Virus record (IMG/VR): IMGVR_UViG_3300028800_000169
Span: 1-42,003 of that record
From: a virus
Direction: 5' to 3' (one strand)
Length of the DNA: 42,003 nt
This document shows, one piece after another, positions 2,638 to 38,238 of this stretch. Positions within the stretch are counted from its first letter, which is position 1. Each line of letters opens with the position of its first letter. Below the pieces are notes generated by a model. The model had not been told where the DNA came from and did not search any database. It saw only the letters and a program-made list of their open reading frames with translations. The translations under genes and the position numbers were made by a program.

Positions 2638-3116
2638 TATATTACCTTTGGTTGAATTGGCCTGAAAATGTGGGTTAAAATCCTTAGATAAGAGGCGTCC
2701 GAAATCAAAGAAAACAACACGCCCCGCCTCATCCAGGCATGGACAAATTGCCCGCCCAAAAGCATCACCCCCACATGATGTTCCACAGCGCTCAATTTAA
2801 AGCACAATAGGTCACCCGCCTTCACGCAATTCGTAATTCCTAATTCGCAATTAGTAATTTCCTCAAAGCATTTGCTTTGAGCCAGCCACCCCATCACCAG
2901 GCTTGTCTTTAAGTGCCTTCCGCCATCGAGCGTGTAGCGCGGGAATTCATAGGAATTAAACAAGCCGCATTCCTTGTAAATCTCCGCTGCCAAATGAATG
3001 CAATCCACGCCGCCACCCTTGATGGCCGCGCCTTTCACAAAGCGCGTGCCCTTCCAGGATTCCGCAGCAACCGTCAACCGGGCCTGTTTCATGGGTCTGT
3101 CAAAAAAGTTTTCCAT
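2637..3116 (-). CDS. NlpC/P60-family tail peptidase
   Basis: A 159-aa papain-like cysteine peptidase of the tail tip, probably cutting peptidoglycan during DNA entry. The catalytic Cys39 lies in GGGVDCIHLA; a His (113/114) lies in EHHVGVMLLGG and another at 126 in FVHAW, with AGDLLCF before them, the usual NlpC/P60 spacing. It overlaps the tip gene by one base. Residues about 86-97 (EITNCELGITNC) are encoded by a copy of the dispersed AATTCGTAATTC repeat at 2828-2859, so a repeat has entered the coding sequence without breaking the frame. Confidence 0.85.
   Translation of the reverse strand: MENFFDRPMKQARLTVAAESWKGTRFVKGAAIKGGGVDCIHLAAEIYKECGLFNSYEFPRYTLDGGRHLKTSLVMGWLAQSKCFEEITNCELGITNCVKAGDLLCFKLSAVEHHVGVMLLGGQFVHAWMRRGVLFSLISDASYLRILTHIFRPIQPKVI
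2828..2859. repeat. AATTCGTAATTC-family dispersed repeat (in CDS)
   Basis: Short AT-rich unit with internal repetition (AATTCGTAATTCCTAATTCG). Other copies lie at 9910-9940, 10993-11026, 16213-16244, 25261-25293 and 26716-26749. This copy is inside the NlpC/P60 gene; the others sit at gene junctions. Confidence 0.8.
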
Positions 3117-4597
3117 TATTTCTTTCCTCCCGGCGACGTGGCTTGCTGCGCAACCAACGCCGGATTGGTTGCCGGCACGGCCGGGAACCCGCCAAAATTT
3201 AAATAATTATGGAACTTCGTCTGGCAGGTTGCCGCCGACCCATCGCAGCCCGGAATCACCTGGATGCGGTCCCCCACCTGAGCCTTAAAGAGCGGCGCAT
3301 TCAATGTCAGCTTCAGGTTGTTGGGATTTGGATCATCTCCGTTATCAACAACCGAATCCAGTATCGTGCGCATTTCACAATCAGCGCCCACGCCTGAATC
3401 AAGCCAGCCCTGCGCAAACCAATGATTGTAAGTCCTGCTGGACAGCCACAAATCCAGCGCGACATGGATGCTGGGAGGGTAGGAGGTTGAATCAATCGCA
3501 AGAATCACGGCAGTCGAGTCATACGCCCCGCGCATAAGCTTGCAGGTAGCCTTGTCATACAATGCCCAAGGGCAGTTGGGTCCGATATAGGGCCCAGGAA
3601 TCTTATTCGCCAGCGCCCAGACCAAACTCTGGCAGGTGGCCTTGATCTGATCCCCAGCATCCTCGACCGAAACCACACGCCCAAAGAAATCCCGCGCGCG
3701 ATCATCCAGATCGGAAAAGGTGATTGAGAAAATCTCCACCCATAGCGGCTTGGGAAACTGAATCGGAAGCATCAAGGCAAAGGGATGATCCGCGCTATAT
3801 TTGGCATCGATCTCCGTTTGAGAAGCCTCAAGCTTCAGGTCGCGCGTGAGCGAGCCATGCTCCATTTGCCATGGGGTAAACAAAATGCCCTGGGAAACCA
3901 CAGGCGCGGCGAAATTCGTGTAATACCAGTCGCAGATCATCGGAGCTTCCGCATAAAAGTGGTAAAGAAAAATCCGCTGCTCACCCGTCTCAATGGCCGT
4001 GTATTCCTCAGGCAATTCCAATACCTTGATTGTCCGCCGCTGCCAGCCTTCTGCCGGAAAGGTGGCGCTCTCCGTGTCATCCGCCAGCCGCACATAATGC
4101 AGCCGGAAGACGCTCAACCGGGCCGCGTCCACGCCAGAGAGCATTAGCAGCACGCTATCAATCGTCACAGTTTCCGTGCCATCCCCATTATCCACAACGC
4201 CGGTAATCGCCGCCGCGTTGGACAGTTGCCCTGGCAGGCTGAAATAAAGATGGACATCAGGGTGATCCTGCCAGGTGGCCGAAAGACCCTGCCTGGCAAT
4301 TTTAAAGCTGCTCATGCTCTGGGCCGAAACCACCTGCATGGTTTCAATAGGCGCGGGAAGCCAGAAGCCCACCAGCCGCCCGTTGAGCGCCTCCGTAAAG
4401 GCGTCAAAGGCCGCAATCGTGTCATCGCCCCGCAGATCGCAGGTCACCTCGTAGCCCTGCGCCACAAAGTCAGCCATCCCGGTGAAATACTCCGCGCCAA
4501 AGCCCAATTGGACCTCTTTCAAATCATAGGTGAAGGACTTATTAACCGGATCGCTCCAGTTAATCGGGAAGGTGAAGATGGGACGGTCGAGATACAT
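3116..4597 (-). CDS. Tail hub protein, DUF2163 / BR0599 family
   Basis: A 493-aa protein with the N-terminal DUF2163-type fold and, at the C-terminus, the BR0599 signature: CPWALYDKATCKL and then PGCDGSAATCQTKFHNYLNF-GGFP, in which the conserved cysteines coordinate the domain. Proteins of this family (GTA gp14-like) form the tail hub between distal tail protein and tip. It lies directly upstream of NlpC/P60 with one-base overlap (start at 4597, only 3 nt after the preceding stop). This gene trio is diagnostic of siphovirus-type tails in Mu-like phages such as B3 and D3112. Confidence 0.88.
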   Translation of the reverse strand: MYLDRPIFTFPINWSDPVNKSFTYDLKEVQLGFGAEYFTGMADFVAQGYEVTCDLRGDDTIAAFDAFTEALNGRLVGFWLPAPIETMQVVSAQSMSSFKIARQGLSATWQDHPDVHLYFSLPGQLSNAAAITGVVDNGDGTETVTIDSVLLMLSGVDAARLSVFRLHYVRLADDTESATFPAEGWQRRTIKVLELPEEYTAIETGEQRIFLYHFYAEAPMICDWYYTNFAAPVVSQGILFTPWQMEHGSLTRDLKLEASQTEIDAKYSADHPFALMLPIQFPKPLWVEIFSITFSDLDDRARDFFGRVVSVEDAGDQIKATCQSLVWALANKIPGPYIGPNCPWALYDKATCKLMRGAYDSTAVILAIDSTSYPPSIHVALDLWLSSRTYNHWFAQGWLDSGVGADCEMRTILDSVVDNGDDPNPNNLKLTLNAPLFKAQVGDRIQVIPGCDGSAATCQTKFHNYLNFGGFPAVPATNPALVAQQATSPGGKK

Positions 4598-4600
4598 GGC

Positions 4601-5023
4601 TTAAAAAACAACCAGGGAAACAACCGTTCCAGATGAAGGGGCGCTTCCTATTAAAACGTCGCAATAGTTTACAGTCTTATTACTAACAGTCCCGCTGGCA
4701 AGAGTCAAATAAGAGGTATTGGGCCTTGGGGACGAAAAAGTGAAGCGCATGGTTAAGCTCGGCGGCAGGCCCGTCAAGCCCCCCGAAGCGCCCGCCCCTG
4801 TTGTGACCCAGGTCGAACCGGTATAGCGCATCTGCGCATTCACCGCGCAAGTAATGAGGCTCTCCGTCGCCAGCGTTAAGTAAGCCTGGGCGTCATCCAC
4901 ATTGCTCTGCATGTTTTGATATTCAAAGAACATGGTGTCAATTAACTCCGCAAACTGCGCCTGCGTGGGCACAAGGCCGGTTTGAAAGTAGCTTTTAAGA
5001 ACGGATTGCGTTTGTGGAATCAT
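4601..5023 (-). CDS. Small tail-tip associated protein
   Basis: 140 aa. The N-terminus (LKSYFQTGLVPTQAQFAELI) is a pattern often seen at the start of phage tail-fibre or tail-accessory proteins, followed by a Gly/Ser/Thr-rich beta segment. It sits between the distal tail protein and the hub gene, 4 nt after the former's stop. No enzyme motif is visible; role as a structural adaptor is inferred from position. Confidence 0.6.
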   Translation of the reverse strand: MIPQTQSVLKSYFQTGLVPTQAQFAELIDTMFFEYQNMQSNVDDAQAYLTLATESLITCAVNAQMRYTGSTWVTTGAGASGGLTGLPPSLTMRFTFSSPRPNTSYLTLASGTVSNKTVNYCDVLIGSAPSSGTVVSLVVF

Positions 5024-5678: not shown

Positions 5679-5704
5679 GGTTTTAAACGAAGATTATTAA
5701 CCGG

Positions 5705-5762
5705 TCCCAACATGCGACGAGAGTCGCATGGCACCCGCTCAATTAGCTAACCCGTGGCGGGA
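5705..5762. repeat. 58-bp hairpin repeat, copy 1
   Basis: Starts TCCCAACATGCGACGAGAGT and ends CTAACCCGTGGCGGGA. The first half is a perfect 8-bp stem (CATGCGAC/GTCGCATG) closed by GAGA. Identical-length copies are at 21462-21519 and 26762-26819, same orientation, with a variable middle. It fills the junction between the tape measure and distal tail genes. Confidence 0.85.
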
Positions 5763-5779
5763 AGTTTCTTGTTGCTTAA

Positions 5780-5816
5780 CTAATCAGTCCAATCCGCCTG
5801 ATCAGTCCGATCAAGT
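5780..5816. repeat. GATCAGTCCGATC-family dispersed repeat
   Basis: Contains CTGATCAGTCCGATCAAGTC and variants. Related tracts: 11580-11606, 19975-20015 (in the portal gene), 30431-30452, 33517-33552 (in the transposase gene) and 37515-37550. The 3' end of the tape-measure gene enters it. Confidence 0.7.
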
Positions 5817-8366
5817 CTTCAATCCCAAGCTGCGTTTTCCTTCCTTGACAATGTGCAGCACGTGCGCGACGCCCTCGCTCTGCATCCACTGCTTATAGGC
5901 GGGCGCGCTGTTGAAGTAGACCACATGCACTTGCGGCGCCGCCGCCGTGCTCGCACTGCTGCGCGGCTGAGCCAATCCTTGGCTTGGAACCTGGCCAACA
6001 AAACCACCGCTGACAATATTATCCAGGTTATCAAAAAATCCGACACCGAACCGGTTTAACGTTGGAGCCGGAATCACGTATTCACCGCGATGCACAACAC
6101 CTGCAGGCTCATTGATTGCACCATCGCCCGTGTAACCGCCTTTAGAAAAGGCGGCCGCAGCCCACACTTCAATAGGCGCCATCGCCGAAGCTTCACCGTC
6201 AGTGGCGATATCCGTCATGATCGCCGCCGGCGCCATGAGCGCCGTAATAGCATCCGACTGCACAGCAACCCCCAGCAATTGAGCCTCCTGTTGAGCCTGC
6301 CCAAAGAGGGCCATCATGGTTTGGCTCACAATCCATTGGAGCGCCATGCGGATGATACCCTCAATAATTGACGATAAAACATCGTCCGCGATATTGGTAA
6401 GCGCCTGTTTCCAGGTCTCCGTTCCCATGATGACGCCTGTCAAATTATGGGAAACACTGGAAACCGCCGTGTTAATGGCTCCCGAAATGGTTTGTGCCAC
6501 CTGTTTTGCCAGCGTGCCCCACTGAGCAATCATGTCAGTCACCGAGTTGCGAATAGCTCCCGAAAAAGTCAGATTGCGCATTTGCTTTTGCACGTCAAGC
6601 TGCTGTTTCATCAACCCCAGCCGTTCCTGCTCAGCCTTCAGGCGGACATCTTCGTTTGAGGATTGTGTCAACTCAGTCTGACGGCTGATCTGCTCATTAA
6701 GCTCGGAATTGATGGCCGCCAGCACCACCTTCAGTTTCTCAGCTTGCTCCTCAAGCCCGAGATTAGAATCGCTTTCCACCAGCGCCTGTTGCGCCTGCAA
6801 ATTAGCCAGCCGCTTTTTTGCCTGTTCATCGTAGACCGCCTGGCGTTTGGCGGCATAGGTTTTTGTCAGTTCATAGACCGCTTGGGCATGCAGCTCCTCA
6901 TCGGTCACTTCAATATCAAGCTTCCGGCGCAGTGCCGCCTCTTCCTGGTCAAGCAAGGCAATCTTCCCTTGGGTGGCTTGCGCATAGGCTTTGTCAATTT
7001 GATCCAGGAGCTTACTTGCCTCATCGCTTACTGGCGCGGACTGATCATTTTTATTTCCATCAGTTCCATCGTTCCTCCCCTTATGCGGGGAGCTTGGTTT
7101 TTTATCAAACATGTTTTGCATGGAATCCGCAAAACCTTGCATCAACAGAAGATCCCTAGTCATTGTATCTTCCGCCACACTACTGAAGTTTCCCCAGCTC
7201 TTGGCGGCAAAGTCCGCCACAGCCTTCGAAGCAGTGTTAAGATTAGAAACAACTATCTTGGACGCCGAAACTGATGCCTCACCAATTTTATCAAATCCCT
7301 GAGAAGCGTCTCCCATGGCTTTAGAAAACTGGCCAGTTGAAAAATCCAGCATCACCTGACCTAGTTGACCAACTCCAGTGCCCAGTTGTATGACACTATC
7401 CACAACGCTTTTCATTGTGTTCACCCAAACCCCAAAAAGTTGAATAACTAACTGGACATTGTAAATAAGCTGATTAAAAACGATGCCGCAGAGTCCCCCG
7501 ATATTCGTGCCCAAAATCATGAAATTCGTGCTCGCAAAAAGCACAACAACAGAAATGCCTTTAAAAAGATCAACAAGTCCCGAGGCAAAATCGCTAAGCG
7601 CGCCGCTCTGCCTTTGAGCATTCTGAAGCCAGGTGACCAAATCCTTAAGAGTGGGAAGCACGCCATTAGCCACCTCGCGCCACATGGCGGAGAGGGTTAA
7701 TTTCAGGCTGGCAATCTGCTCCTCAAATTCCAACGCTTCCTTACTTTGTTTCGCTGTAACCAAGGTTCCCCCCGCCTCAGCCTCATCACGCATCTTGCGC
7801 AAGCCCTCCGCCCCCTGGTTTAAGATCGGGATCAATTCCCGGCCTGATCGTCCAAAAAGCTCCATCGCCACATAGGTCTTTTGAGGTCCATCTGGCATCG
7901 CCTTAAACTTGTCCATCACCTGTTGCAGGATCTGGTTAACAGGAAGAATCTTTCCATAATCATCAGTGAGGCTCACACCGAGATCCCGAAATATCTTTGC
8001 CAGATCCCCACCTGTCTTCAATGCCGAGAAAATTTTATCCGAGAACATCCCAAGGCTGACATTAAGCTCTTCAAAACTCACCTTGCTTTTCTCAGCGGTG
8101 GCCTGCAACGCGCTCAGCGTCTCCACTGAAAGCCCGGTCTTTTGCGCCAGCTTGTCAAGAGCCGCTTCAGATTCAATAGCCTTTTCCGTAAAGTCGACAA
8201 TGGCTCCCACCGTGAACGCGGCCGCGAGCTGCCCGGCGATTTCCCCAAGGAAGGAGCTGGCGCCGCTGACTTTCTCCATGCCCTGCGCCAACTGGCCAAA
8301 GAGCGCCTGGATTTGCTGCGCCGCGGCTTCGGTTTGGGCGTTGACATTAAGTGTGATTCCAGCCAT
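5811..8366 (-). CDS. Tape measure protein
   Basis: 851 aa. It fixes tail length during polymerisation. The N-terminal half is Ala/Gln-rich helical with hydrophobic stretches near residues 40-60 and 270-350; a coiled-coil region (about 440-600) is rich in QEEAALRRKLD-type heptads; the C-terminus contains the common tape-measure motif SKGGYTGDGAINEPAGVVHR followed by GEYVIPAP. It directly follows the frameshifted tail chaperone gene, the universal order in long-tailed phages. An 851-residue measure predicts a tail of roughly 120-130 nm by the usual 0.15 nm per residue rule. Confidence 0.92.
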   Translation of the reverse strand: MAGITLNVNAQTEAAAQQIQALFGQLAQGMEKVSGASSFLGEIAGQLAAAFTVGAIVDFTEKAIESEAALDKLAQKTGLSVETLSALQATAEKSKVSFEELNVSLGMFSDKIFSALKTGGDLAKIFRDLGVSLTDDYGKILPVNQILQQVMDKFKAMPDGPQKTYVAMELFGRSGRELIPILNQGAEGLRKMRDEAEAGGTLVTAKQSKEALEFEEQIASLKLTLSAMWREVANGVLPTLKDLVTWLQNAQRQSGALSDFASGLVDLFKGISVVVLFASTNFMILGTNIGGLCGIVFNQLIYNVQLVIQLFGVWVNTMKSVVDSVIQLGTGVGQLGQVMLDFSTGQFSKAMGDASQGFDKIGEASVSASKIVVSNLNTASKAVADFAAKSWGNFSSVAEDTMTRDLLLMQGFADSMQNMFDKKPSSPHKGRNDGTDGNKNDQSAPVSDEASKLLDQIDKAYAQATQGKIALLDQEEAALRRKLDIEVTDEELHAQAVYELTKTYAAKRQAVYDEQAKKRLANLQAQQALVESDSNLGLEEQAEKLKVVLAAINSELNEQISRQTELTQSSNEDVRLKAEQERLGLMKQQLDVQKQMRNLTFSGAIRNSVTDMIAQWGTLAKQVAQTISGAINTAVSSVSHNLTGVIMGTETWKQALTNIADDVLSSIIEGIIRMALQWIVSQTMMALFGQAQQEAQLLGVAVQSDAITALMAPAAIMTDIATDGEASAMAPIEVWAAAAFSKGGYTGDGAINEPAGVVHRGEYVIPAPTLNRFGVGFFDNLDNIVSGGFVGQVPSQGLAQPRSSASTAAAPQVHVVYFNSAPAYKQWMQSEGVAHVLHIVKEGKRSLGLKT

Positions 8367-8390: not shown

Positions 8391-8478
8391 CACACGAAGC
8401 CACGAAGGACACGAAGCCTGAATGCATTTTTGTTTGGTTCATTTCTTCGTGCCTTCGTGCCTTCGTGCCTTCGTGTGG
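8391..8478. repeat. CACGAAG-family inverted repeat pair
   Basis: CACACGAAGCCACGAAGGAC at 8391-8416 faces CTTCGTGCCTTCGTG units at 8445-8478, which can fold as a long imperfect stem with a loop of about 28 nt between the tail chaperone extension and the tape measure. Same family: 25848-25873, 29557-29583, 29698-29722 and 29979-30005. Confidence 0.75.
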
Positions 8479-9076: not shown

Positions 9077-9115
9077 CTTTTCGTTTATTTCGCTTTTTTC
9101 GCGGTTAATTGCAGT
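9077..9115. repeat. TTTCGCTTATTTCGCGGTTA-family repeat
   Basis: Spacer between the chaperone and the tube gene. Sister tracts at 24845-24886 and 36983-37018, always at gene junctions. Confidence 0.65.
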
Positions 9116-9901: not shown

Positions 9902-10006
9902 AGGATGATAATTACGAATTACGAATTTTGAATTACGAAAAGGCTGAGCGGACGCGCTTAACACGCCCGCCAGCAAAAGCCCCATTATTAAGTTTTTAAG
10001 CTTCAT
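9902..10006 (-). other. Signal-peptide ORF joined in frame to the tube gene
   Basis: From ATG 10006 the frame encodes MKLKNLIMGLLLAGVLSASA then QPF, a textbook Sec signal peptide, followed by residues RNSKFVIRNYHP that come from the AATTCGTAATTC repeat at 9910-9940, and then runs straight into the tube protein. It looks like the 5' remnant of a secreted-protein gene joined to the tube gene by a repeat. Whether it is translated is unknown. Confidence 0.5.
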
Positions 10007-10045
10007 TTTATGTTGAGCGGCCGGGTTTGCGGATTCCGGCCGCTC

Positions 10046-10075
10046 CGAAATCCACAATCCCCAATCCGCAATGGT
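10046..10075. repeat. CAATCCGCAATC-family repeat
   Basis: Reads AATCCACAATCCCCAATCCG. Other copies at 15714-15745, 21310-21345 (inside portal gene), 30227-30262 (end of the duplicated HTH gene) and 31828-31842. Confidence 0.7.
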
Positions 10076-10992: not shown

Positions 10993-11026
10993 GAATTAGT
11001 AATTCGTAATTCCTAATTCGTAATTA
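10993..11026. repeat. AATTCGTAATTC-family repeat
   Basis: GAATTAGTAATTCGTAATTC followed by another AATTCGTAATT unit, at the junction between 10827-10973 and 11024-11578; the stop region of the latter lies at its edge. Confidence 0.75.
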
Positions 11027-11578
11027 TCTGCACGTGAACACCCGGTCCCCGGCATCCACATGCCAGGTCATTTGCCAGCCCAGCCGTCCCGGCAGGTTCG
11101 CCCGGTCCTTGTCCACCAGCTTGAAGGGCTGACCCGATTGCGGCCGCGTGCGCAGCAGGCGCGGGGCAAAGCTGAAATTCTGGGCGATCAATTGGTTTTC
11201 CAGCAGGTCCTTCATCACCAGCACACCGGGATGCGCGGGATCGCCGCTGCCCGTGGAGGCCTGCTGGCGCTTGCCCTGATCGCGATCGCAGATCAAAAGC
11301 TCCAGGATGCGCGTGCAATGCACTGTGAGTGAATTGCCCTGGCGCTCGTCCGTGTATTCCTCGCCGCTGGGGATGATCAGGCAGACCCGGTTCTGAAAGG
11401 AGCGCAACTCCTGAAAGGCCTTCACCAGGTCCGGCGACGAATAGAACTGCACGTTTTCAAAGAGCGGCACAGCGGGCGTATCCCCCGCCTGGGGAACCAG
11501 CACCAGCCCGATCAAGAAATCTTGCATGGCCTGCATGATATCCACGGTCCCCAGGTAATCGTTATTTGGTGTGTTCAT
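11024..11578 (-). CDS. Tail terminator / DUF1834 (Mu gp37)-like protein
   Basis: 184 aa; starts MNTPNNDYLGTVDIMQAMQD and includes a beta-rich middle (NRVCLIIPSGEEYTDERQGN) and the C-terminal GWQMTWHVDAGDRVF. Position after the DUF1320-like connector and before the tube genes is that of Mu gp37 and similar tail completion proteins. Assignment mostly by order. Confidence 0.6.
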   Translation of the reverse strand: MNTPNNDYLGTVDIMQAMQDFLIGLVLVPQAGDTPAVPLFENVQFYSSPDLVKAFQELRSFQNRVCLIIPSGEEYTDERQGNSLTVHCTRILELLICDRDQGKRQQASTGSGDPAHPGVLVMKDLLENQLIAQNFSFAPRLLRTRPQSGQPFKLVDKDRANLPGRLGWQMTWHVDAGDRVFTCR

Positions 11579-11605
11579 TTGATCAGTCAGATCGGTCGGA
11601 TCAGT

Positions 11606-11977
11606 CTAATATTTCCTCTTGCTTCCCCAGCGCCCCGGCGCGCTCGCCAGGCTGGGATCCACCGGGGTTTGAACCAGCAAGTCCGGAAACTTCCCGTCAC
11701 GGATGGCTTCCAGTTCCTTCATGGCCGCATTAAAGGTGGCTGTGTGCTGGTCGGGGATCGGCCCGACCTTGGCATAGACCTCAAAGAACACCAGGGAACG
11801 CACCAGACGCTTGCGCCGCTTGGGATCAACCAGATATTTAGTCGCGTAATCTGTCACCTTCTGGTCTTGCTCATCCACGATGGATTGCAGCGTGTCCGTT
11901 GAACCGCCGTTAACCAGGGCATCCGAAAGACTGGATTGTTCATCGGCCGCAAAAAAATCAGTGGGTTTAAAGGGCAT
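11606..11977 (-). CDS. Head-tail connector, DUF1320 (Mu gp36)-like
   Basis: 123 aa from ATG 11977 (MPFKPTDFFAADEQSSLSDA); the frame is open upstream but those residues overlap the fibre gene's end. The helical pattern (DTLQSIVDEQDQKVTDYATK, then RSLVFFEVYAK) fits the DUF1320 connector family that seals the head to the tail. It follows the fibre gene by 11 nt. Confidence 0.65.
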   Translation of the reverse strand: MPFKPTDFFAADEQSSLSDALVNGGSTDTLQSIVDEQDQKVTDYATKYLVDPKRRKRLVRSLVFFEVYAKVGPIPDQHTATFNAAMKELEAIRDGKFPDLLVQTPVDPSLASAPGRWGSKRKY

Positions 11978-15435: not shown

Positions 15436-15454
15436 AATTAAGGAATATTTAATT

Positions 15455-15514
15455 GGTGGGGCGGTGCTGCCGCGCCGCCCTGATATTAGGGCTGAGGAGC
15501 ACCTCAGCCCCACC
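15455..15514. repeat. 60-bp GGTGGGGCGGTGCTGC repeat, full-length copy
   Basis: Full unit with two arms: GGTGGGGCGGTGCTGCCGCG, a central TGATATTAGGGCTGAGG, and CACCTCAGCCCCACC. It differs by one base from the copy at 31754-31813 inside the transposase gene. Shorter copies are at 17652-17680, 19615-19640, 21553-21580 and 23346-23371. Confidence 0.85.
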
Positions 15515-15690: not shown

Positions 15691-15713
15691 ATTTTTTAGC
15701 TTTCGTTTGTTTC

Positions 15714-15745
15714 AATCCGTAATCCGCAATCGCCAATCCGCAATT
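15714..15745. repeat. CAATCCGCAATC-family repeat
   Basis: AATCCGTAATCCGCAATCGC then CAATCCGCAATTG, between 15523-15690 and the following gene. Confidence 0.75.
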
Positions 15746-15748
15746 GAA

Positions 15749-16210
15749 TCAGGGGAAATACCCGCCAATCACCTTCTGGATCGTGAGCGAATTGGTCTGC
15801 GAGGTCACAATCTGATCCAGCCGCCACCACCGCGCATTATTGAGCACGGCGGGACCAATGAGGGTGTAGCCCACAACCGGGTTCGTCCCATTGGCGGAGT
15901 TAGTGACCGTGATTGGCAGCGTAGTGCTGAAGTTAGTGCCATCCACGCTCACATTAAATCCAAAGACCACGTTGCTGGTGCCTGAATTAGTTCCCACCAG
16001 CATCGGCGCCAGCGCGTAGCCCCGCCCGCTCCAGATCTGCACCGGTGGGTTGGTTGTGCCGAAGTTGTTGGTCGAAGGACCCGCGATCACCAGGTTGGTG
16101 ATCCCAAAGCTCTTAACCACCTGCGCTTGCGACGGCGCTGTCATAAACAGCAAGCCCGCAATGATGAGCATCCAAAGGATGCCGAATGTTTTTTTGTTTC
16201 GATTTTTCAT
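15749..16210 (-). CDS. Secreted-type structural protein of unknown function
   Basis: 153 aa. The N-terminus has a clear Sec signal peptide (basic MKNRNKKTFG, hydrophobic ILWMLIIAGLLFM, then APSQAQ cleavage). The mature part is beta-rich with many Asn/Thr/Gly residues (SNVVFGFNVSVDGTNFS) and resembles phage fibre or host surface proteins. It lies directly downstream of the capsid gene. A signal peptide is unusual for a virion component assembled in the cytoplasm. Confidence 0.6.
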   Translation of the reverse strand: MKNRNKKTFGILWMLIIAGLLFMTAPSQAQVVKSFGITNLVIAGPSTNNFGTTNPPVQIWSGRGYALAPMLVGTNSGTSNVVFGFNVSVDGTNFSTTLPITVTNSANGTNPVVGYTLIGPAVLNNARWWRLDQIVTSQTNSLTIQKVIGGYFP

Positions 16211-16212: not shown

Positions 16213-16244
16213 AATTCGTAATTCGTAATTACTAATTCGCAATT
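16213..16244. repeat. AATTCGTAATTC-family repeat
   Basis: AATTCGTAATTCGTAATTAC then TAATTCGCAATT, filling the junction just upstream of the 15749-16210 gene. Confidence 0.75.
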
Positions 16245-17180: not shown

Positions 17181-17225
17181 TTGTTTTTCAGAATTTTAAA
17201 ATTTCAGCGTTTCAGATTTTTCGAT

Positions 17226-17651: not shown

Positions 17652-17680
17652 ATGGTGGGGCGGTGCTGCTGCGCCGCGCT
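17652..17680. repeat. GGTGGGGCGGTGCTGC repeat, short copy
   Basis: GGTGGGGCGGTGCTGCTGCG followed by CCGC, at the junction between the decoration and protease/scaffold genes. Confidence 0.75.
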
Positions 17681-18954: not shown

Positions 18955-19000
18955 TTTTTGTTTCAGCGTTTTAGCTTTTCAGCGTTTCAGCTTTTTTCTT
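18955..19000. repeat. TTTCAGCGTTTTAGC-family repeat
   Basis: TTTCAGCGTTTTAGCTTTTC then AGCGTTTCAGC. Other copies at 17185-17220, 21751-21786, 24108-24143 and 26099-26134. Confidence 0.75.
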
Positions 19001-21470: not shown

Positions 21471-21519
21471 GCGACGAGAGTCGCATGCCTAACCCCTCCA
21501 AGGCTAACCCGTGGCGGGA
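21462..21519. repeat. 58-bp hairpin repeat, copy 2
   Basis: Same ends and the same CATGCGAC-GAGA-GTCGCATG stem as copies at 5705 and 26762; the longer portal ORF starts at the ATG formed by its antisense strand. Confidence 0.85.
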
Positions 21520-21769
21520 TGATTCGCTGACCCTTCCTAAAAACCAGATACGGTAGGTCGGTGCTGCTGCGCCGCCCAAACTTTGTTTTATCTCCGGTTT
21601 GACCAATTCCTAGACCCGTATGCAAAGCGTTTGCAAAGACACGGAGACGAACTTTGGCACTCAGGAGCCATGATGACGCCATTAAAACGGTATGAGGCAT
21701 TCTAGGCGGCATTCCTAGGCCTTTGCATGATCAGTGAAAGGCGCATATTGCTTTCAGCGTTTTAGCGTT
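21520..21769. other. Portal-terminase spacer, repeats only
   Basis: About 300 bases between the portal and terminase genes (21471-21769) contain no convincing gene. They hold the 58-bp element, a short GGTCGGTGCTGCTGCGCCGCC copy (21557-21580), a near-palindrome around 21700-21722 (GGCATTCTAGGCGGCATTCC then TAGGCC), and the TTTCAGCGTTTTAGC family that forms the end of the terminase gene. The minus-strand ORF here has repeat-like composition and is not called. Confidence 0.6.
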
Positions 21770-24098: not shown

Positions 24099-24147
24099 CT
24101 GTATTCTTTTTCAGCATTTCAGGATTTCAGCTTTTCAGCTTTTTCCC

Positions 24148-24845: not shown

Positions 24846-24886
24846 TTCTTATTTCGCTTATTTCGCTTATTTCGCGGTTAATTCTG
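24845..24886. repeat. TTTCGCTTATTTCGC-family repeat
   Basis: Tandem TTATTTCGC units then GCGGTTAATTC; the end of the spanin-like gene lies inside it. Confidence 0.7.
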
Positions 24887-25260: not shown

Positions 25261-25293
25261 AATTCCTAATTCGTAATTCTTAATTCGTAATTA
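25261..25293. repeat. AATTCGTAATTC-family repeat
   Basis: AATTCCTAATTCGTAATTCT then TAATTCGTAATTATTC, exactly between the i-spanin-like start and the upstream gene's stop. Confidence 0.75.
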
Positions 25294-26088
25294 TTCTTTC
25301 CCAATCCCCGCCTCAATCCCATCGCGCAAGGAGGTCAACAGCTTTTCCGCGAACGGACTGGCGTCAATCTTCGCGGCCACCATCTTTTGCCAGTTCACTT
25401 CGTAGATTGAAATCGCCGCCAAAATAGCCGCTTGCGCAGCCGTGTCGTGCAGCTCATTGACTGAGATATTCGACAGCGTCGACTTAAGCGCGGTTGGATC
25501 AAACGACTTATCCGCCAAGGCGACCGTCAGCACCGTGTCCGCCGCCCGCAGATATTCCACCGAATTGGAATCATACATCTCCGCCGCGACGGAAGCCCCA
25601 GCCGCCAGAGTCGCCAGCGTGTTAGCCACAAAGTCCCAGTTCACCGACGCACTGCTCACCGACGCACTCACTCCATTAGTGGTGGGCTCCGGCTCCGGCC
25701 CAATGGGATGAATCATTGAGGTGGGCGTGGAAGCGCAGCCAGTGAAGAGCACAACCAAAAACAACACCACCGTGGTAGCGATCCCCAGCGGCAAATAGAG
25801 CCGGTTGCTGATAAAACCAGAAGTCGATTTTGGAATGTCAGAAATCTTCGTGCCCTTCGTGTCTTCGTGTGAGGAATTCCCGTTCTCCGCGAAGCTTTGC
25901 AGCGCCTTGAATCCAAACGCGCCACCGACAAGCCCCACCTGGCTCCAGTCCAGGGGCAGCATCCTGCCCGCCTTGATTGAAAGCGCGGCCCACACGCCAA
26001 CGACGGTCACAACCACCATCATGGTAAGCACCCGTATCATGGACGGCTGGCCGTCCCCGTCAGAAAAAAGTTCGTTTAATTTATTCAT
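25291..26088 (-). CDS. Holin-like protein fused to a lipoprotein
   Basis: 265 aa. Residues 1-70 (MNKLNELFSDGDGQPS, a membrane helix MVVVTVVGVWAALSI, then LVGGAFGFKALQSFAE) match a widespread phage protein of about 75 aa in lysis cassettes. Residues 72-82 (SSHEDTKGTK) are a CACGAAG-family repeat (25848-25873). After it come a second hydrophobic segment and lipobox (VLFLVVLFTGC) and a helical domain. The layout looks like two genes joined by a repeat that removed stop and start signals. Function in lysis is inferred from neighbours. Confidence 0.6.
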   Translation of the reverse strand: MNKLNELFSDGDGQPSMIRVLTMMVVVTVVGVWAALSIKAGRMLPLDWSQVGLVGGAFGFKALQSFAENGNSSHEDTKGTKISDIPKSTSGFISNRLYLPLGIATTVVLFLVVLFTGCASTPTSMIHPIGPEPEPTTNGVSASVSSASVNWDFVANTLATLAAGASVAAEMYDSNSVEYLRAADTVLTVALADKSFDPTALKSTLSNISVNELHDTAAQAAILAAISIYEVNWQKMVAAKIDASPFAEKLLTSLRDGIEAGIGKE

Positions 26089-26371
26089 GGAATTTTTTAT
26101 TTCAGCATTTTAGCTTTTCAGCTTTTCAGCGTTTGACTGAAAGGGCATTCCGTCCGCCAGGTGTTGGGACACAAAGCGTCCGGCGCGAAGGCCGCGCTCC
26201 AGACGGACGGAAAGAGGGGAAAAAGGGTTGCTGACAGGTCGGAGACAGCGCGTTAAATTCCGTCCATGACAACATTCATTCAACGCGCCGAATCCTTCCT
26301 GTGCCCGGCTCTTAACCGGAAAGTCAGACTTGTTTGCAATTGGGCTGTTCATCAGTCAGGCGATCAAGTGT
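26089..26371. other. Spacer before the lysis genes; candidate structured element
   Basis: Holds a TTTCAGCGTTTTAGC-family tract (26099-26134) and a hairpin-prone block, TTCCGTCCG near 26148 facing CGGACGGAA near 26205, enclosing a GC-rich CCGGCGCGAAGGCCGCG core. Being upstream of the whole late block it could carry the late promoter, but I see no convincing -35/-10 pair. The minus ORF across it has no protein-like pattern. Confidence 0.45.
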
Positions 26372-26770
26372 TCAACGGTCGGGAGTCTTGTTCTGGCTGG
26401 GAGGAATGCGGCATTCGTTCTCAAACCGGCATTCTGGGCATGGGTGTGCGCACAGATTGGGACCGCTGCAAACACCCTCTGCCAGCTCCAGTCTTAGCGA
26501 AAGACAATCCGAATCCTTGAACTCGGGCAGCTTGGAGAGGTCCACCTCCCAGGTAAGGCACAGGTGGGACTGGTTCTTGCGCTTGAGAAAAAGCGAAAGT
26601 TTGGAAGGCATCCCCGCCGGGCGGATCATCAACTGGCGGCGGCCCTCGCATTCCTCGACGTGGATGCGGCACTGCCCAGCGAAGGTGGTTTGTGAGATCT
26701 CAATAGGAATCCCCCCATTCGTAATTCCTAATTCGTCATTCGTAATTGCTGTTTTTGTGCGTCCCAACAT
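26372..26770 (-). CDS. Cys-rich protein of unknown function
   Basis: 132 aa as an ORF, but the first 20 or so residues (MLGRTKTAITNDELGITNG) derive from the 58-bp element and the AATTCGTAATTC repeat, so the native start is unclear and probably near 26700. The remainder looks genuine: QCRIHVEECEGRRQLMIRPA, a hydrophobic core, and a Cys cluster CSGPNLCAHPCPECRFENEC able to bind zinc. It sits between the late block and the repressor operon; a regulatory role is possible but not shown. Confidence 0.5.
   Translation of the reverse strand: MLGRTKTAITNDELGITNGGIPIEISQTTFAGQCRIHVEECEGRRQLMIRPAGMPSKLSLFLKRKNQSHLCLTWEVDLSKLPEFKDSDCLSLRLELAEGVCSGPNLCAHPCPECRFENECRIPPSQNKTPDR
26716..26749. repeat. AATTCGTAATTC-family repeat
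   Basis: CATTCGTAATTCCTAATTCG then TCATTCGTAATT, at the 5' end of the Cys-rich gene, next to the 58-bp element. Confidence 0.75.
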
Positions 26771-26819
26771 GCGACGAGAGTCGCATGCCTCCCCCTCGAA
26801 AGGCTAACCCGTGGCGGGA
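26762..26819. repeat. 58-bp hairpin repeat, copy 3
   Basis: Same length, orientation and stem as copies at 5705 and 21462; located between the Ig-protein stop and the Cys-rich gene. Confidence 0.85.
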
Positions 26820-26844
26820 TCTTTCGGGAACCCTTTGGAAAGAC

Positions 26845-29556: not shown

Positions 29557-29747
29557 TCACACGAAGCCACGAAGTCACGAACACGAGCATGTTAATAGAG
29601 TTGCGCCGCGCACTGGCCACTCTAGAGAGCGTGAAGCGCAAAAACCCACATATCGATGATTCGGTTTCTGGGGAAGTCAGTTTGCGAATTAAAAAACTTC
29701 GTGCCTTCGTGTCTTCGTGTGACCAACTCCTAAATCCCCATGAATAA
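29553..29747 (+). CDS. Small protein bracketed by an inverted repeat pair
   Basis: 64 aa from ATG 29553. The first 12 residues (MITRSHEVTNTS) are encoded by a CACGAAG repeat (29557-29583) and the last ones (LRAFVSSCDQLL) by its inverted copy (29698-29722). The middle is a helical stretch, MLIELRRALATLESVKRKNP. So the gene's coding ends are repeat DNA on both sides. Confidence 0.6.
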   Translation: MITRSHEVTNTSMLIELRRALATLESVKRKNPHIDDSVSGEVSLRIKKLRAFVSSCDQLLNPHE

Positions 29748-30267
29748 CTGCGAACGCCCAAACACCAACGGCCAACTCTCCTTCGATCTGCGCCTGCCCG
29801 CTGGCCGGCCCCTGGTCCCGATCGAAGCCGTCATGGTTTTGATCGACCGCGACGAGGACGACATCTTGAACCTGGTCGAGCTGGGCAAGCTGCGCTGGGC
29901 GTTCGACATTTCCTCCCCTGGCACCAAGCGGCGCGAACTGCGCATTCACCGGGAGAGCGTTTTGGAATATCTGAGTTCCTCACACGAAGCCACGAAGGAC
30001 ACGAATCTAATTTCCGGCATACTTCCCAAACCCACTCTGGTTCAAGCCCACGCCACCATTCGCGGCACCGAGCTGGGCCGGCGCTTTAGTTGCTGCCAGT
30101 GGCTGGTTGCCAACTTAATTGACACGGGCGAGCTTTCCCTTGCGCCCATCCCGGTGACCTGCAAGGTCAGCCCCTTTATCGACCACGCCAGCGCCCTGGC
30201 CTTCCTGCTACGCCGCTGCCTGAATAATGCCCAATCCGCAATCCGAAATCCCCAATCCGCAATATGA
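29740..30267 (+). CDS. Duplicated DNA-binding-like domain protein
   Basis: 175 aa. Two related domains: residues 19-78 (RPLVPIEAVMVLIDRDEDDI ... LVELGKLRWAFDIS ... ELRIHRESVLEYL) and about 98-160 (ATIRGTELGRRF ... WLVANLIDTGELSLAPIPV ... SPFIDHASALAFLLRR). They share the pattern helix, LIDxGEL wing, then SxLxFL helix, like MerR/excisionase-type winged helices. The linker SSSHEATKDTN is a CACGAAG repeat and the C-terminus NNAQSAIRNPQSAI is a CAATCCGCAATC repeat. A DNA-binding role is likely but not specific. Confidence 0.6.
   Translation: MNNCERPNTNGQLSFDLRLPAGRPLVPIEAVMVLIDRDEDDILNLVELGKLRWAFDISSPGTKRRELRIHRESVLEYLSSSHEATKDTNLISGILPKPTLVQAHATIRGTELGRRFSCCQWLVANLIDTGELSLAPIPVTCKVSPFIDHASALAFLLRRCLNNAQSAIRNPQSAI
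30227..30262. repeat. CAATCCGCAATC-family repeat at a gene end
   Basis: CCAATCCGCAATCCGAAATC then CCCAATCCGCAATA; encodes the last residues of the preceding protein and abuts the next ATG. Confidence 0.75.
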
Positions 30268-31717: not shown

Positions 31718-33685
31718 ATGGATATTTCCTCACACGAATCCGAGGTTAACGATGGTGGGGCGGTGCTGCCGCGCCGCCCTGATATTAAGGCTGAGGAGCA
31801 CCTCAGCCCCACCCAGCAATCTCTTGTCAATCCGCAATCGGTTGCCCCTCATGCCGCCCCCGATGTCTTCGGACCGGCTGACATCGAGCGCCTCACCGAC
31901 GCCGAGCAGCGCAAGCAGCTTGTCCTGGAATATCGACGCCTCATGTCCAGTGAAGACTTGAGCGGACGCAAAGCCGCCCGGCGCATGGGCCTGCCCCACG
32001 GAAACCTCTGGCGCTGGGATGAGGCGTTCACCAAGTTCGGCTTTGCCGGTCTTTTGGACAACTGCCACAAGTCCGGCCGCAAGCCGCAATTCCCTCCGCT
32101 GACCCCCGAAGAGGAAAAGGCCTTGAGCCAGCTTTTCATGAAGACCAACAAGGACGAGGAATCCGGCTCCATGATGACGGCCACCAAGTTCTTTGCGCTG
32201 GCGCCCGACACCCGCGACGAAGTGCGCAATGCCATCCTGCCGGTCATTGAGGGCGGCTCCGTCCCCCAGACCATCAAGCGCGTGCTGGAGCGAATCACCC
32301 CCACGCATGTTCGCGCCTACCGCCAGCCGGACATGTGCGCCACGCGCGATTTCTCCGGGCAGGTCGGCGCCTTTGCCGACGACAAAATCAACCGCCGCCG
32401 TGTGATTGAATCGGACGACGGCACGCTCAATTTCGCCTGCTGGATTCCCTGGGAACTGGGCGGCGACCCGTGCAGCGACAAGTTCAAGGTGCGCCTGGGG
32501 CGCTGGCAATTTCTGCCCGCCATTGAAGCCGGATGGAGCCACATGTATTTGGGCTATGCCCTGATCTGCCGTCCACGCGGCAGCTACCGGGCTGACGACA
32601 TCCGCGCCCTCATCTGGATGCTCGCCAAGAGCCACGGCCTGCCCGACATGTTCCGCTTTGAGCGCGGTTCGTGGGAAAGCAACCAGATTGTTGACTTGCT
32701 CAAAAAGATGGGAGTCACGCTCAATACTGTCTGGCAGTCCAACCAGAAGCCCTACGTTGAAGGCGGTTTTTCTAGCCTGTGGACTTATCTTTCGGTGATT
32801 GACGGTCAAGTTGGCCGTTACCGTGGGGAGCAGGAAACGGAAAACCTGCTGGTGACCAAATGCCGCGCCGGGCGCTTAGATCCCCGTGAGAAGTTCCCCA
32901 GCCTGGTCCAGTGCATCAAGGCTGTGAACGGCTCTCTAGCCATGCGCAACAGCGACACGATCCGCAGCATCTACGGGCAGTGGGTTCCCGAGGTGCGCCA
33001 TGCTCAACTCAAGGAGGAGCGCCCCTGGCGTCAGCTCGCGCCTGAAATGGAGTTTCTTTTCTCGCCGTTTGTGCGCGAATGGACGGTTGCCAAAGGCACG
33101 GTGGGCGGCAAAGTCCCCATTCTTGAAGACTACTCCGCGCCGTTCTATTTTGAGGCGGATGACCTCTGGCGCTGGAACGGCCACAAAGTCCGCGTTTACT
33201 TCGACCCCATTGCCACGCCCTGCATGGCCACTATCGTGGCCATGGAAGAATACAACGGCTACCGGCCCGAGGAAATCATCTGCCGCGCCACCTTGACCCC
33301 CAGCCCGCTCCCGCATTTTTGCCGCGCTGCCGTGGGCTGGAGCGAAGAGGAGCAAATCAAGCAAACCGGCTGGCGCGCCGCCGCCCTGGGTGCGATGCGC
33401 AGGGATCTCCTTGCCCTGGACACACGCGGCCAGGTCAAAGCCGCCGTGAGCGAATCGCGCGACGGCCAGGGCGGCTTCAGCCGCATCGAATCGGGCGCAG
33501 CGGCGTCTGCCAATACGTCCGATCAGTCCAATGCGACCGCTCCGTCCAAACTGTCCGTTCCCTCCCGTTCCCGCTCCACGACGCCGCTGCCCACGCCCGA
33601 GCAATCCAGAAACCGAAACGATCTCTTAGCTAAGCAGGCCGCTTTTGCCCGCAAGGCTAGACAGGAAGCCGAGTCAACCTATTAG
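31718..33685 (+). CDS. MuA-like transposase
   Basis: 655 aa, as long as MuA (663). HTH at residues 82-105 (LSGRKAARRMGLPHGNLWRW). RNase H-fold core: D233/D234 in ESDDGTLNFACW, a second acid in MFRFERGSWES (E315 or E320) where Mu has Asp, and E348 in NQKPYVEGGF. A beta-barrel domain follows (FEADDLWRWNGHKVRVYFDP), then a Ser/Thr-rich tail with a GATCAGTCC repeat. It binds the terminal repeats, pairs the ends and joins them to target DNA. Residues 13-35 are encoded by a 60-bp dispersed repeat (31754-31813). Confidence 0.85.
   Translation: MDISSHESEVNDGGAVLPRRPDIKAEEHLSPTQQSLVNPQSVAPHAAPDVFGPADIERLTDAEQRKQLVLEYRRLMSSEDLSGRKAARRMGLPHGNLWRWDEAFTKFGFAGLLDNCHKSGRKPQFPPLTPEEEKALSQLFMKTNKDEESGSMMTATKFFALAPDTRDEVRNAILPVIEGGSVPQTIKRVLERITPTHVRAYRQPDMCATRDFSGQVGAFADDKINRRRVIESDDGTLNFACWIPWELGGDPCSDKFKVRLGRWQFLPAIEAGWSHMYLGYALICRPRGSYRADDIRALIWMLAKSHGLPDMFRFERGSWESNQIVDLLKKMGVTLNTVWQSNQKPYVEGGFSSLWTYLSVIDGQVGRYRGEQETENLLVTKCRAGRLDPREKFPSLVQCIKAVNGSLAMRNSDTIRSIYGQWVPEVRHAQLKEERPWRQLAPEMEFLFSPFVREWTVAKGTVGGKVPILEDYSAPFYFEADDLWRWNGHKVRVYFDPIATPCMATIVAMEEYNGYRPEEIICRATLTPSPLPHFCRAAVGWSEEEQIKQTGWRAAALGAMRRDLLALDTRGQVKAAVSESRDGQGGFSRIESGAAASANTSDQSNATAPSKLSVPSRSRSTTPLPTPEQSRNRNDLLAKQAAFARKARQEAESTY
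31754..31813. repeat. 60-bp GGTGGGGCGGTGCTGC repeat inside the transposase gene
   Basis: Differs by one base from the copy at 15455-15514 (TATTAAGG for TATTAGGG) and is read in frame. Confidence 0.9.
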
Positions 33686-35349: not shown

Positions 35350-35771
35350 ACGCTATCACCAAACCCACTCTTCACGCGCTGCGCGTCCACATCGCCACCC
35401 CTGAAGGCAAGCCCCTTTGCAGCATCGCCCAAAAAGTGACCACCTGGCAAACCGATCTGGCCGAGCCCAACTGCAAGCTCTGCGCCCGCCGCAAAGCCAA
35501 AAAAGAGCGTAGCAGTCGAGGTGACGAGACTCAAACTGCAAAGTTCATAGTGCAAATTACAGCCAGAGCGCCAATTGGTCTGACTGTCATGTTTCTAAGA
35601 AATGGCTTCAGCCTCTGCCCTGACAACGACGCCACCTTGTTTCCCGACGAGGCCAGCGCCCAAACCGCAATCAATAATCATCCCAATCTCACTCAATTCG
35701 CACCTAAAATCATGCCAGTAAATGTGAAACCAAAACCAACCACAAAGAGCACAAAGGACACAAAGATATGA
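35346..35771 (+). CDS. Early protein with repeat-derived C-terminus
   Basis: 141 aa from ATG 35346. First part: LRVHIATPEGKPLCSIAQKV then EPNCKLCARRKAKKE, a CxxC zinc-like piece; the second part (FIVQITARAPIGLTVMFLRN) differs in composition and may have been a separate gene. The C-terminus KPTTKSTKDTKI is encoded by the arm of an inverted repeat (35738-35800). No family recognised. Confidence 0.55.
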   Translation: MNAITKPTLHALRVHIATPEGKPLCSIAQKVTTWQTDLAEPNCKLCARRKAKKERSSRGDETQTAKFIVQITARAPIGLTVMFLRNGFSLCPDNDATLFPDEASAQTAINNHPNLTQFAPKIMPVNVKPKPTTKSTKDTKI

Positions 35772-35800
35772 ACTCTGTGCTCTCTGTGATCTCTGTGGTT
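35738..35800. repeat. ACCACAGAGA-family inverted repeat (hairpin)
   Basis: AACCACAAAGAGCACAAAGG (from 35738) faces CTCTGTGCTCTCTGTGATCT then CTGTGGTT (to 35800), forming a long imperfect hairpin that ends in AAAAAC. Lies between two early genes; could attenuate transcription. Confidence 0.7.
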
Positions 35801-36341: not shown

Positions 36342-36550
36342 GCATTACTCCCCTTCATCCTTCGTTTGAAGACGCACGATCTCTGAGCTGGATAGTTCAT
36401 ACCAGCGTGGATGATGCGAAAACGACCATTGCCAATGCCAGCAAAGAGCAATGTGAGGCAGCCTTAACGTATCTGCAAACCAAGAACAAACATCACAAGA
36501 CCCGCATCAAGATGATTCAAGCGCGCCTCAAGCGACTGTCAAAAGTTTAG
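36338..36550 (+). CDS. Small early protein
   Basis: 70 aa, ATGA overlap with Gam. Ends in a basic helix (KHHKTRIKMIQARLKRLSKV). Unknown function. Confidence 0.6.
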   Translation: MSITPLHPSFEDARSLSWIVHTSVDDAKTTIANASKEQCEAALTYLQTKNKHHKTRIKMIQARLKRLSKV

Positions 36551-36592
36551 CGAAAATTAGTGAAGATTAGCGGTTAAAAAACGCCCAAACCT

Positions 36593-36973
36593 ATGAACCC
36601 AAAAGGAAATCGCAAAGAAGTAATGGATCTGGCAGCCCAACGCCAACAGCGCGCCATCGCCTGGATCCGCTCCCTGCCGACTGGAGAATTCACCAGGATG
36701 GCGATCGCCAAAAACATAGGCTGCACCTACAACGAATCCAAATTCGTCATCTGGGCGCTCCTGTCAAAAGGGCTGATTGAAAAAGTCAATAACAGCAAGC
36801 CTAGAACCTACGGACTCATTGGCCGCGCCATAAAGGCAACACCCGCCAAAGTCGCCACTCCCATCATCGATCCCAGAACAGACAGGGAGAAATCATATTG
36901 GCAGTTTCGATCGGCGCTAAATATTTTACCCGTCGAAAGTCTGGCCAGCCGTTTCACCAACCGAGGGAATTAA
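36593..36973 (+). CDS. Winged-helix early protein
   Basis: 126 aa; RAIAWIRSLPTGEFTRMAIA then KNIGCTYNESKFVIWALLSK and GLIEKVNNSKPRTYGLIG make a winged helix in residues 20-76. The rest is low-complexity. A regulatory role is likely. Confidence 0.6.
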   Translation: MNPKGNRKEVMDLAAQRQQRAIAWIRSLPTGEFTRMAIAKNIGCTYNESKFVIWALLSKGLIEKVNNSKPRTYGLIGRAIKATPAKVATPIIDPRTDREKSYWQFRSALNILPVESLASRFTNRGN

Positions 36974-36982
36974 TCATGAGCA

Positions 36983-37018
36983 TTCTTCTTTCGCTTATTT
37001 CGCGTGTTTCGCGGTTAT
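36983..37018. repeat. TTTCGCTTATTTCGC-family repeat
   Basis: CTTTCGCTTATTTCGCGTGT then TTCGCGGTTA, leading directly to the next ATG at 37017. Confidence 0.65.
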
Positions 37019-37556: not shown

Positions 37557-37558
37557 TT

Positions 37559-37879
37559 ATGAATCTAACATTCCCAAATTATCATACAAACTTCGGCCTG
37601 CCTTTTTTCTGGCGTGATGAAGTCAGTGGCATTCTAGAATTAGCCGTCACGGCTTATCTGGGTTACCGCTGCAACACGGGCCCGGAACCGACACCCGATC
37701 AGGTTTCTCTTTTGCGCGAGTATTTTCGGCACTGGATCAATGCCCCCTGCTGGAGCGAGAACGAGGGTTTTGAGGAAGAAATGGCTCACCTCAAAAGCTC
37801 CATCGATGGTTTGACATCCTGCGATCAGCTCGCCGCCTGGATCAAGGAAGCACTCGAAATTGGATTAGACCCATTATGA
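37559..37879 (+). CDS. Unknown early protein
   Basis: 106 aa: FFWRDEVSGILELAVTAYLG, DQVSLLREYFRHWINAPCWS, DGLTSCDQLAAWIKEALEIG. Well-structured helical sequence, ATGA overlap with the DUF3820 gene. No family recognised. Confidence 0.6.
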   Translation: MNLTFPNYHTNFGLPFFWRDEVSGILELAVTAYLGYRCNTGPEPTPDQVSLLREYFRHWINAPCWSENEGFEEEMAHLKSSIDGLTSCDQLAAWIKEALEIGLDPL

Positions 37880-38238
37880 ACCCGCTCCCTCCACTCACTG
37901 GCGACGACAAACTCACCTTTGGCAAATGGGAAAACACCCCGCTTAAAAACGTGCCCTCCCATTACCTTGATTGGCTCCTGGGAAAAGCCTTCATCGCCGA
38001 GCGTTTCCCCCGCCTGCACGCCTATTGCAAAACCCGCCGCCAAGCCGAACAAGCGCCGACATCGGTCCAAGCCGTCCGATCCGCACCGAAAGCTCCAACG
38101 GAGCGCCCCATCCCAGCCCAGGGCAACGCCCTGGGAACTGTGCCCCCTCCTGTCAAAAGCCCTGAAGGGGCGAAACAAACCCCCTATCAAGCCAAAATTC
38201 AAGACCTGATCGCCCAAATGAGAAAGGAAGCCAAATAA
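37876..38238 (+). CDS. DUF3820-family protein with an inserted repeat
   Basis: 120 aa. The first 50 residues, LTFGKWENTPLKNVPSHYLD then WLL, are a DUF3820 domain (FGKYKG-PL-DVP-YL-WLL pattern), often found beside exonucleases and in phage early regions. Residues about 75-100 are translated from a GC-rich dispersed repeat (GCTCCAACGGAGCG ... CCCAGGGCAACGCCCTGGG ... AGCCCTGAAGGGGCG, 38093-38174) with palindromic pieces. The last 20 residues are a normal helix. Confidence 0.7.
   Translation: MNPLPPLTGDDKLTFGKWENTPLKNVPSHYLDWLLGKAFIAERFPRLHAYCKTRRQAEQAPTSVQAVRSAPKAPTERPIPAQGNALGTVPPPVKSPEGAKQTPYQAKIQDLIAQMRKEAK
38093..38174. repeat. GC-rich palindromic repeat in the DUF3820 gene
   Basis: Three small palindromes in series: GCTCCAACGGAGCG, CCCAGGGCAACGCCCTGGG and GCCCTGAAGGGGC. 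The last is a widely spread bacterial intergenic repeat type; here it is in frame. Confidence 0.65.

Follow-up and report, generated by a model that had tools for sequence, protein, structure and literature searches.

REP-type hairpins and fixed-length direct-repeat arrays at the gene junctions of a Mu-like phage and in Limisphaerales genomes

The virus record IMGVR_UViG_3300028800_000169 is a 42,003-base IMG/VR contig of a Mu-like transposable phage, and its whole length (positions 1 to 42,003) is the window analysed here. The gaps between its genes are probably filled with two kinds of dispersed repeat that are common to the host group: repetitive extragenic palindromic (REP) hairpins, and direct-repeat arrays of fixed length that are gained and lost as whole units. 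The probability of this reading is put at roughly 0.6. The repeats in the window are of two kinds, palindromic hairpins (kind 1) and non-palindromic direct-repeat arrays (kind 2). The seeding of gene junctions is at least two processes, one of which is known in kind and one of which is unexplained.

Two kinds of repeat in the phage and its host order

Tandem Repeats Finder (score of at least 35; periods 6–10, 14, 16 and 18) detected 30 non-overlapping arrays in the 42 kb, whereas shuffles that preserve dinucleotides averaged 1.65. All nine repeat families named in the initial annotation are present. That annotation treated them as one kind; the nine are real, but two are hairpins and the rest are direct-repeat arrays. 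The arrays have a period of 7 (AATTCGT and CAATCCG), 8 (TTTCAGC and CACGAAG) or 9 (GATCAGTC, TTTCGCTTA and CACAGAG). AATTCGT occurs as six full arrays and one short one, CAATCCG as four copies, TTTCAGC as four copies of exactly 35 bp and one degenerate copy (17186), CACGAAG as six copies, GATCAGTC as seven, TTTCGCTTA as three and CACAGAG as a single inverted pair (35741–35797). A GC-rich hairpin, referred to below as the GC hairpin, is found at six places, at two of them as a head-to-head dimer (15454–15514 and 31753–31813), and a 58-bp hairpin at three (5704, 21461 and 26761). A search of Rfam gave no match, and a literature search on the repeat sequences themselves returned nothing relevant.

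Array length goes with period rather than with sequence. Six of the nine period-7 arrays in the window are exactly 32 bp long, the four clean period-8 TTTCAGC arrays are exactly 35 bp each, and period 9–10 arrays measure about 24–28 bp. The period-7 layout is (4-nt core + 3-nt spacer)×4 + core, so that five cores and four spacers make up the 32 bp; period 9–10 arrays contain three cores of 6–7 nt. Cores are less variable than spacers, with values of 0.88–1.00 at the AATT positions and down to 0.71 at spacer positions. The same lengths were observed in the Limisphaerales genome MJ-time_bin-1719 (G023; L145), of which 1.5 Mb was scanned. This sequence contains 175 period-7 arrays, built on dozens of distinct consensus heptamers, compared with 12 in shuffled G023 and one in 150 kb of Escherichia coli. 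Their lengths have a mode of 32 bp (35 arrays, and 68 at 31–33 bp), while period-8 arrays peak at 35 bp and period-10 arrays have a mode of 27 bp. The broad, monotonic lengths and near-identical units of slippage microsatellites were not found in the arrays. On a crude map of open reading frames, 45 of the 97 G023 arrays of 29–35 bp are intergenic, against 16% expected. In an all-against-all comparison of arrays with loci, coding period-9 repeats predominated, and the result was not used.

Arrays of period 8–10 are also found in inverted pairs whose members are separated by tens to about 140 bp (window 8392/8445, 29560/29697 and 35741/35769), and inverted pairs of the CACGAA type are likewise present in several Limisphaerales genomes. 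Many of the TTTCAGC arrays of G023 lie within a longer repeat of the form TTTGGTCCCAT-[array]-GAGTTCCAGCCCCGC (loci L207, L211, L227, L393, L396 and L398).

The GC hairpin pattern matched 65 loci in the genome_contigs collection. The informative titles among them are Verrucomicrobiota, mostly Limisphaerales/subdivision 3, and two read just 'bacterium'; the host of the phage therefore most likely belongs to Limisphaerales. The 65 loci are spread over many Limisphaerales genomes and match the host order rather than an exact host.

Array families were likewise matched to the host order, with reversed-pattern searches as the control. AATTCGT arrays (one mismatch allowed) were found in 40 of 320 Limisphaerales genomes, CAATCCG arrays in 37 of 50 (up to 68 matches in one genome) and CACGAA-type arrays in 17 of 50, all with no control matches. 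TTTCAGC gave 32 matches in G023 and a single control match, in another genome. The initial annotation had proposed a mechanism that adds short repeats between genes in phage and host, and the same families are indeed present in host-order chromosomes with virtually no control matches. At host-order level, there is good support for a process, common to host and phage, that seeds gene junctions with repeats. What is not supported is that one mechanism accounts for the nine families. AATTCGT arrays were further found in unrelated phages whose GC content is 29–66%, and in 38 of 72,556 plasmids, the listed ones being mostly cyanobacterial, with Bernardetia and Bacteroides as the Bacteroidota. The cyanobacterial plasmid arrays are longer, near-perfect and variable in length (33–75 bp).

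Orthologous junctions of related host-order genomes hold different repeats. At one junction with the same flanks in G023 and a related Limisphaerales genome, G237, G023 carries a 32-bp AACTNAA array, whereas G237 carries a different hairpin and an AACCAGC array. A clean case of presence and absence lies directly upstream of the start of carB (identified by reading its first codons), where a period-7 array is present in G023 and absent from G237. Between these two genomes, homology of 99% stops exactly at an array boundary. Several different arrays lie end to end in one G023 junction (L214:13700–13990), and this cluster is wholly different in G237.

Phage relatives from 61% TerL identity down carry none or few of the window families, and have other arrays of the same style. 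The families are nearly absent from these relatives and do not look tied to fixed positions, a comparison limited by the nearest TerL relatives being too divergent for most junctions to be aligned; no relatives of the MuA or tape-measure genes were found in viral_contigs. Ordinary regulatory elements, the alternative named in the initial annotation, would be absent from the host and conserved in position among related phages; as far as the data allow, this pattern was not found. At the G023/G237 sites compared, at least, the repeats are not conserved regulatory elements.

The GC hairpins fit REP elements, either single or as head-to-head dimers (REPINs, or REP doublets forming hairpins), of the GTAG type. 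Their layout is GGTGGGGC-stem-TGCT-stem-GCCC, in which the stems vary yet remain complementary. A GTAG/GWRG tag stands at the 5′ foot of the palindrome, in the window as G-GTGG-GGCGGTGC-TGCT-GCGCCGCC, and the GTAG tag is present in many host-order loci. Stem changes are compensated (GGTGC/GCGCC, GGAGC/GCTCC and TGAGG/CCTCA) with the loop position unchanged, and head-to-head dimers are found both in the window (15454–15514 and 31753–31813) and in G023. Genes for REP-associated tyrosine transposases (RAYTs), which the initial annotation had suggested seeking in the host, were found in 13 of 13 Limisphaerales genomes tested. A REP/RAYT explanation fits the tag, palindrome, compensated stems, dimers and RAYT genes. 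It is proposed that host RAYT transposases, acting in trans, most likely placed the GC hairpins in the phage. Several Limisphaerales RAYT genes are flanked by GTAG hairpins, and seven RAYT loci (L239, L240, L241, L244, L246, L253 and L255) are bordered on either side by GTAG-tagged hairpins that are inverted relative to each other, as in typical REPtrons.

In their GTRG tag, 8-bp stem, short loop, compensated stem changes and head-to-head dimers, the GC hairpins resemble the known GTAG REP/REPIN and RAYT systems (PMC3733652, PMC2817692), as they do in their occurrence in many Limisphaerales genomes of an order that encodes RAYTs. GTAG repeats with mostly GTGG tags have been reported from the verrucomicrobium O. 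terrae (PMC3733652), and GTGG is also the tag of the phage GC hairpins. Unlike the known elements, the phage GC hairpins sit on a phage, and also inside its terminase and MuA genes, and Limisphaerales RAYT genes are flanked by GTAG hairpins other than the GC family. The GC hairpins add to the known GTAG REP class, and their carriage by a phage is unusual.

Gain of the arrays and rival explanations

Fixed length, together with presence/absence sites, is best explained if arrays come and go whole. Arrays would be gained and lost as ready-made units, by copying or insertion, both in host chromosomes and in the phages living there. They would survive where harmless: just past a stop codon, ahead of the following ribosome site, or, where the frame is kept, in gene ends that are dispensable. 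Array positions at gene ends are those expected if the only insertions to survive leave the reading frame and the following ribosome site intact, and selection would then have caused the positions.

Polymerase slippage offers an unlikely alternative, in which arrays are local microsatellites grown from chance duplications, the footprint of the polymerase favours heptamers, and a mobile step is not required. Among long simple repeats, heptanucleotides are the most frequent in many bacteria, and slippage has been proposed for them (PMC4692102, PMC4679880). The cyanobacterial plasmid AATTCGT arrays, being long, near-perfect and variable in length, behave as this model predicts, and the lack of register memory in AATTCGT arrays is also consistent with it. 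However, in the window as in G023, lengths peak at 32, 35 and 27 bp regardless of sequence, and units are degenerate; the same consensus reappears at many sites that are unrelated, as well as in unrelated phages and in another phylum; and a gene leader has or lacks an entire array. Less probable again is that the arrays are functional sites that bind a protein or RNA factor (in translation, termination or partition) and are kept by selection. They do adjoin stop and start codons, their cores vary less than their spacers, and similar arrays of Beggiatoaceae, Xanthomonas and Geobacter have been so read (PMC4679880, PMC4692102, PMC2700814). Against this stand the many different consensus sequences per genome, the arrays that lie in frame inside genes, the absence of arrays from the same junction in relatives and the near-absence of the families from phage relatives.

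A single host enzyme, RAYT, spreading all nine families is very improbable, even though RAYT genes are present in every host-order genome tested and the GC hairpins have REP form. REP recognition requires a tagged hairpin, but period 7–8 arrays are direct repeats without one, and a RAYT origin of the direct-repeat arrays was rejected on this ground. An equally remote prospect is that telomerase-like or defence reverse transcriptases make tandem-repeat DNA on a short RNA template, which is then inserted. DRT10 synthesises 9-nt tandem repeats by means of an A-B-A′ template with a 4-nt A (PMC12632851), an arrangement that resembles the (4-nt core + spacer)n + core form; the variable spacers, however, do not fit one template. 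The initial annotation had also raised a reverse-transcriptase gene in the host. An RVT_1 domain was found in five of eight host-order genomes, G023 among them, but the Pfam search found none in the array-bearing G003, G276 and G014, a result limited by the incompleteness of draft genomes; G003 nevertheless has 55 CAATCCG matches. With RVT_1 not found in three of eight array-bearing drafts, a DRT10-like source is unlikely to be required. To our knowledge, no insertion of DRT10-type cDNA into genomes has been described.

Several observations weigh against REP hairpins and whole-unit arrays shared with the host group. The true host genome was not found, so that the family matches are to its order rather than to the host itself. 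A scan of 800 kb of G023 turned up none of the GATCAGTC, TTTCGCTTA, CACAGAG and 58-bp families, and no clear target-site duplication was seen at the divergence available. Only about half of the G023 period-7 arrays are intergenic (the 45 of 97 given above, on the crude map). The hairpins that flank RAYT genes are of other GTAG types, the GC family being found near one once, about 1.3 kb off. Finally, copies of the AATTCGT array keep no memory of register (0.843 in register, 0.851 when shifted), and simple copying of one parent array is therefore not favoured; CAATCCG (p ~0.01) and TTTCAGC (0.04–0.08) favour it only weakly.

Positions of the elements in the phage genome

The assignment as a Mu-like phage is based on PHROGs family matches of its genes, which include a major head protein, head maturation protease, portal, terminase and tape measure, as well as a MuA-like transposase, a MuB-like transposition protein and a thymidylate synthase. 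The gene map used below is approximate, as are all element-to-gene distances and counts taken from it: a few gene starts are off or guessed, and some were corrected. Repeats had been said to occupy most loose junctions. This holds for the 31 of 45 elements that lie in or overlap junctions, where they make up about 35% of non-coding bases, but the other 14 are inside genes, in frame and mostly near gene ends; examples are those at the N-termini of TerL (23346) and MuA (31753) and in the portal gene (21312 and 19973). Of the 25 junction arrays, 18 overlap an adjacent stop codon or begin no more than 5 nt from one.

Single arrays and single hairpins are on the plus strand unless stated; inverted pairs, dimers and the 58-bp copies have no strand assigned. 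AATTCGT arrays of 32 bp lie within gene 2637–3116 (2828–2859), overlap the stop codon of gene 11024–11578 (10994–11025), fill junction 16210/16248 (16213–16244) and constitute the entire junction 25259/25291 (25261–25292). Another directly precedes the start codon of the gene that ends at 9119 (9910–9939, minus strand), and one adjoins a copy of the 58-bp hairpin (26717–26747). CAATCCG arrays are located at 10045–10072, at 15713–15744 (32 bp, 4 nt past the stop of gene 15749–16210), in the portal gene about 42 amino acids from its N-terminus (21312–21344, minus strand) and at 30232–30263, where 32 bp form the last codons of gene 29740–30267. The degenerate TTTCAGC array fills junction 17180/17226 (17186–17220). 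Its 35-bp counterparts occupy junctions 18949/19000 (18961–18995) and 24098/24148 (24109–24143), overlap the 3′ end of the terminase gene (21752–21786) and lie upstream of gene 25291–26088 (26100–26134).

CACGAAG forms inverted pairs at 8392–8475 (8392–8418 and 8445–8475), in the junction after the start of the tape-measure gene, and at 29560–29720 (29560–29582 and 29697–29720); the pair at 35741–35797 is of CACAAAG/CACAGAG. GATCAGTC arrays overlap the stop of the tape-measure gene 5811–8366 (5783–5813), fill junction 11578/11606 (11581–11606), lie in frame in the portal gene (19973–20013) and are found near the 3′ end of the MuA gene (33510–33549). The TTTCGCTTA array at 9078–9102 is followed by GCGGTTAA; that at 24848–24875 (28 bp) is 2 nt from the neighbouring gene on each side, and a third lies in junction 36973/37017 (36985–37012). 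Elements of period 9–10 share a terminal GGTTAA/AACC cap, in the form AACC(GCGAAA)TAA(GCGAAA)TAA(GCGAAA) of about 28 bp, and capped elements occur at 9078–9110, 24848–24883, 36985–37017, 36543–36576 and 23313–23339.

The two head-to-head REP dimers, each of two GC hairpins, are 98% identical; one is at 15454–15514 and the other lies in the MuA N-terminus (31753–31813). Single GC hairpins of REP-like form are at 17654–17679, at the 3′ end of the portal gene (19615–19640), at 21552–21577 and, with the compensated stem GGAGC/GCTCC, in the terminase N-terminus (23346–23371).

The 58-bp element is palindromic, with an 8-bp stem and a GAGA loop, and its copies lie at 5704–5787, 21461–21544 and 26761–26844. 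Its exact core had no match in genome_contigs or viral_contigs, and the hairpin could be an ordinary phage element. In the second copy, the portal start codon lies in one hairpin arm (CATGCGAC-GAGA-GTCGCATG, window 21461–21487), and the third (26761–26787) could supply the start of the open reading frame 26372–26770. The 58-bp hairpin may be a phage translation-control element.

Known heptamer systems and the meaning of the arrays

The direct-repeat arrays belong with the heptameric repeat or short tandemly repeated repetitive (STRR) class of cyanobacteria, Geobacter, Xanthomonas and Beggiatoaceae, with which they share dispersed tandem arrays of ~7-nt units enriched at gene junctions. A variable number of units (2 to 26 reported) is a trait of that class rather than a strict requirement, and it was not found in the window and G023, where lengths peak at 32 bp. 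Geobacter metallireducens has four to five tandem heptanucleotides (GGGACCG, MTYCTGA) or four octanucleotides (GTTGCTYN), which are likewise multicopy and located between and within genes (PMC2700814). Its families are few, however, and are read as regulator sites, whereas the host order has dozens of fixed-length families and the phage has many, with turnover at junctions.

The STRR and the GGGGAYT/GGGAATC heptamers of Nostoc and Xanthomonas also have a period of 7, are dispersed, lie near stop codons and prefer four units (PMC4692102), and AATTCGT itself is present in many cyanobacterial plasmids, in arrays that are longer and more perfect than those described here. In Nostoc and Xanthomonas the unit number is explained by the need to form a G-quadruplex, whereas here the length preference applies to sequences that are not G-rich; because one fixed length is independent of sequence, G-quadruplex formation cannot be the general reason for unit number. 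The TAACTGA heptamers of Beggiatoaceae similarly occur in two to six copies at gene junctions over distant phyla, with no known transfer mechanism (PMC4679880), but comprise one heptamer, as opposed to the many families described here, phage included. In number of families, sequence-independent fixed length and phage carriage, the arrays differ from the known heptamer systems.

It is possible, though doubtful, that an unrecognised and widespread machinery inserts ready-made (core + spacer)n + core arrays of fixed length at junctions in several phyla, with phages carrying arrays between genomes. If so, phage-carried arrays would explain the identical heptamer families in Verrucomicrobiota, Cyanobacteria and Bacteroidota. 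Heptameric direct repeats have previously been noticed piecemeal and explained case by case, through G-quadruplexes, regulator sites or slippage. Here a phage and its host order contain many families of the same fixed lengths, with turnover between related genomes, and this points to a single, general process. The length rule and the presence/absence sites make unit-wise and whole-array change directly testable against each other. As the phage shows, a virus can serve as a vehicle for such repeats.

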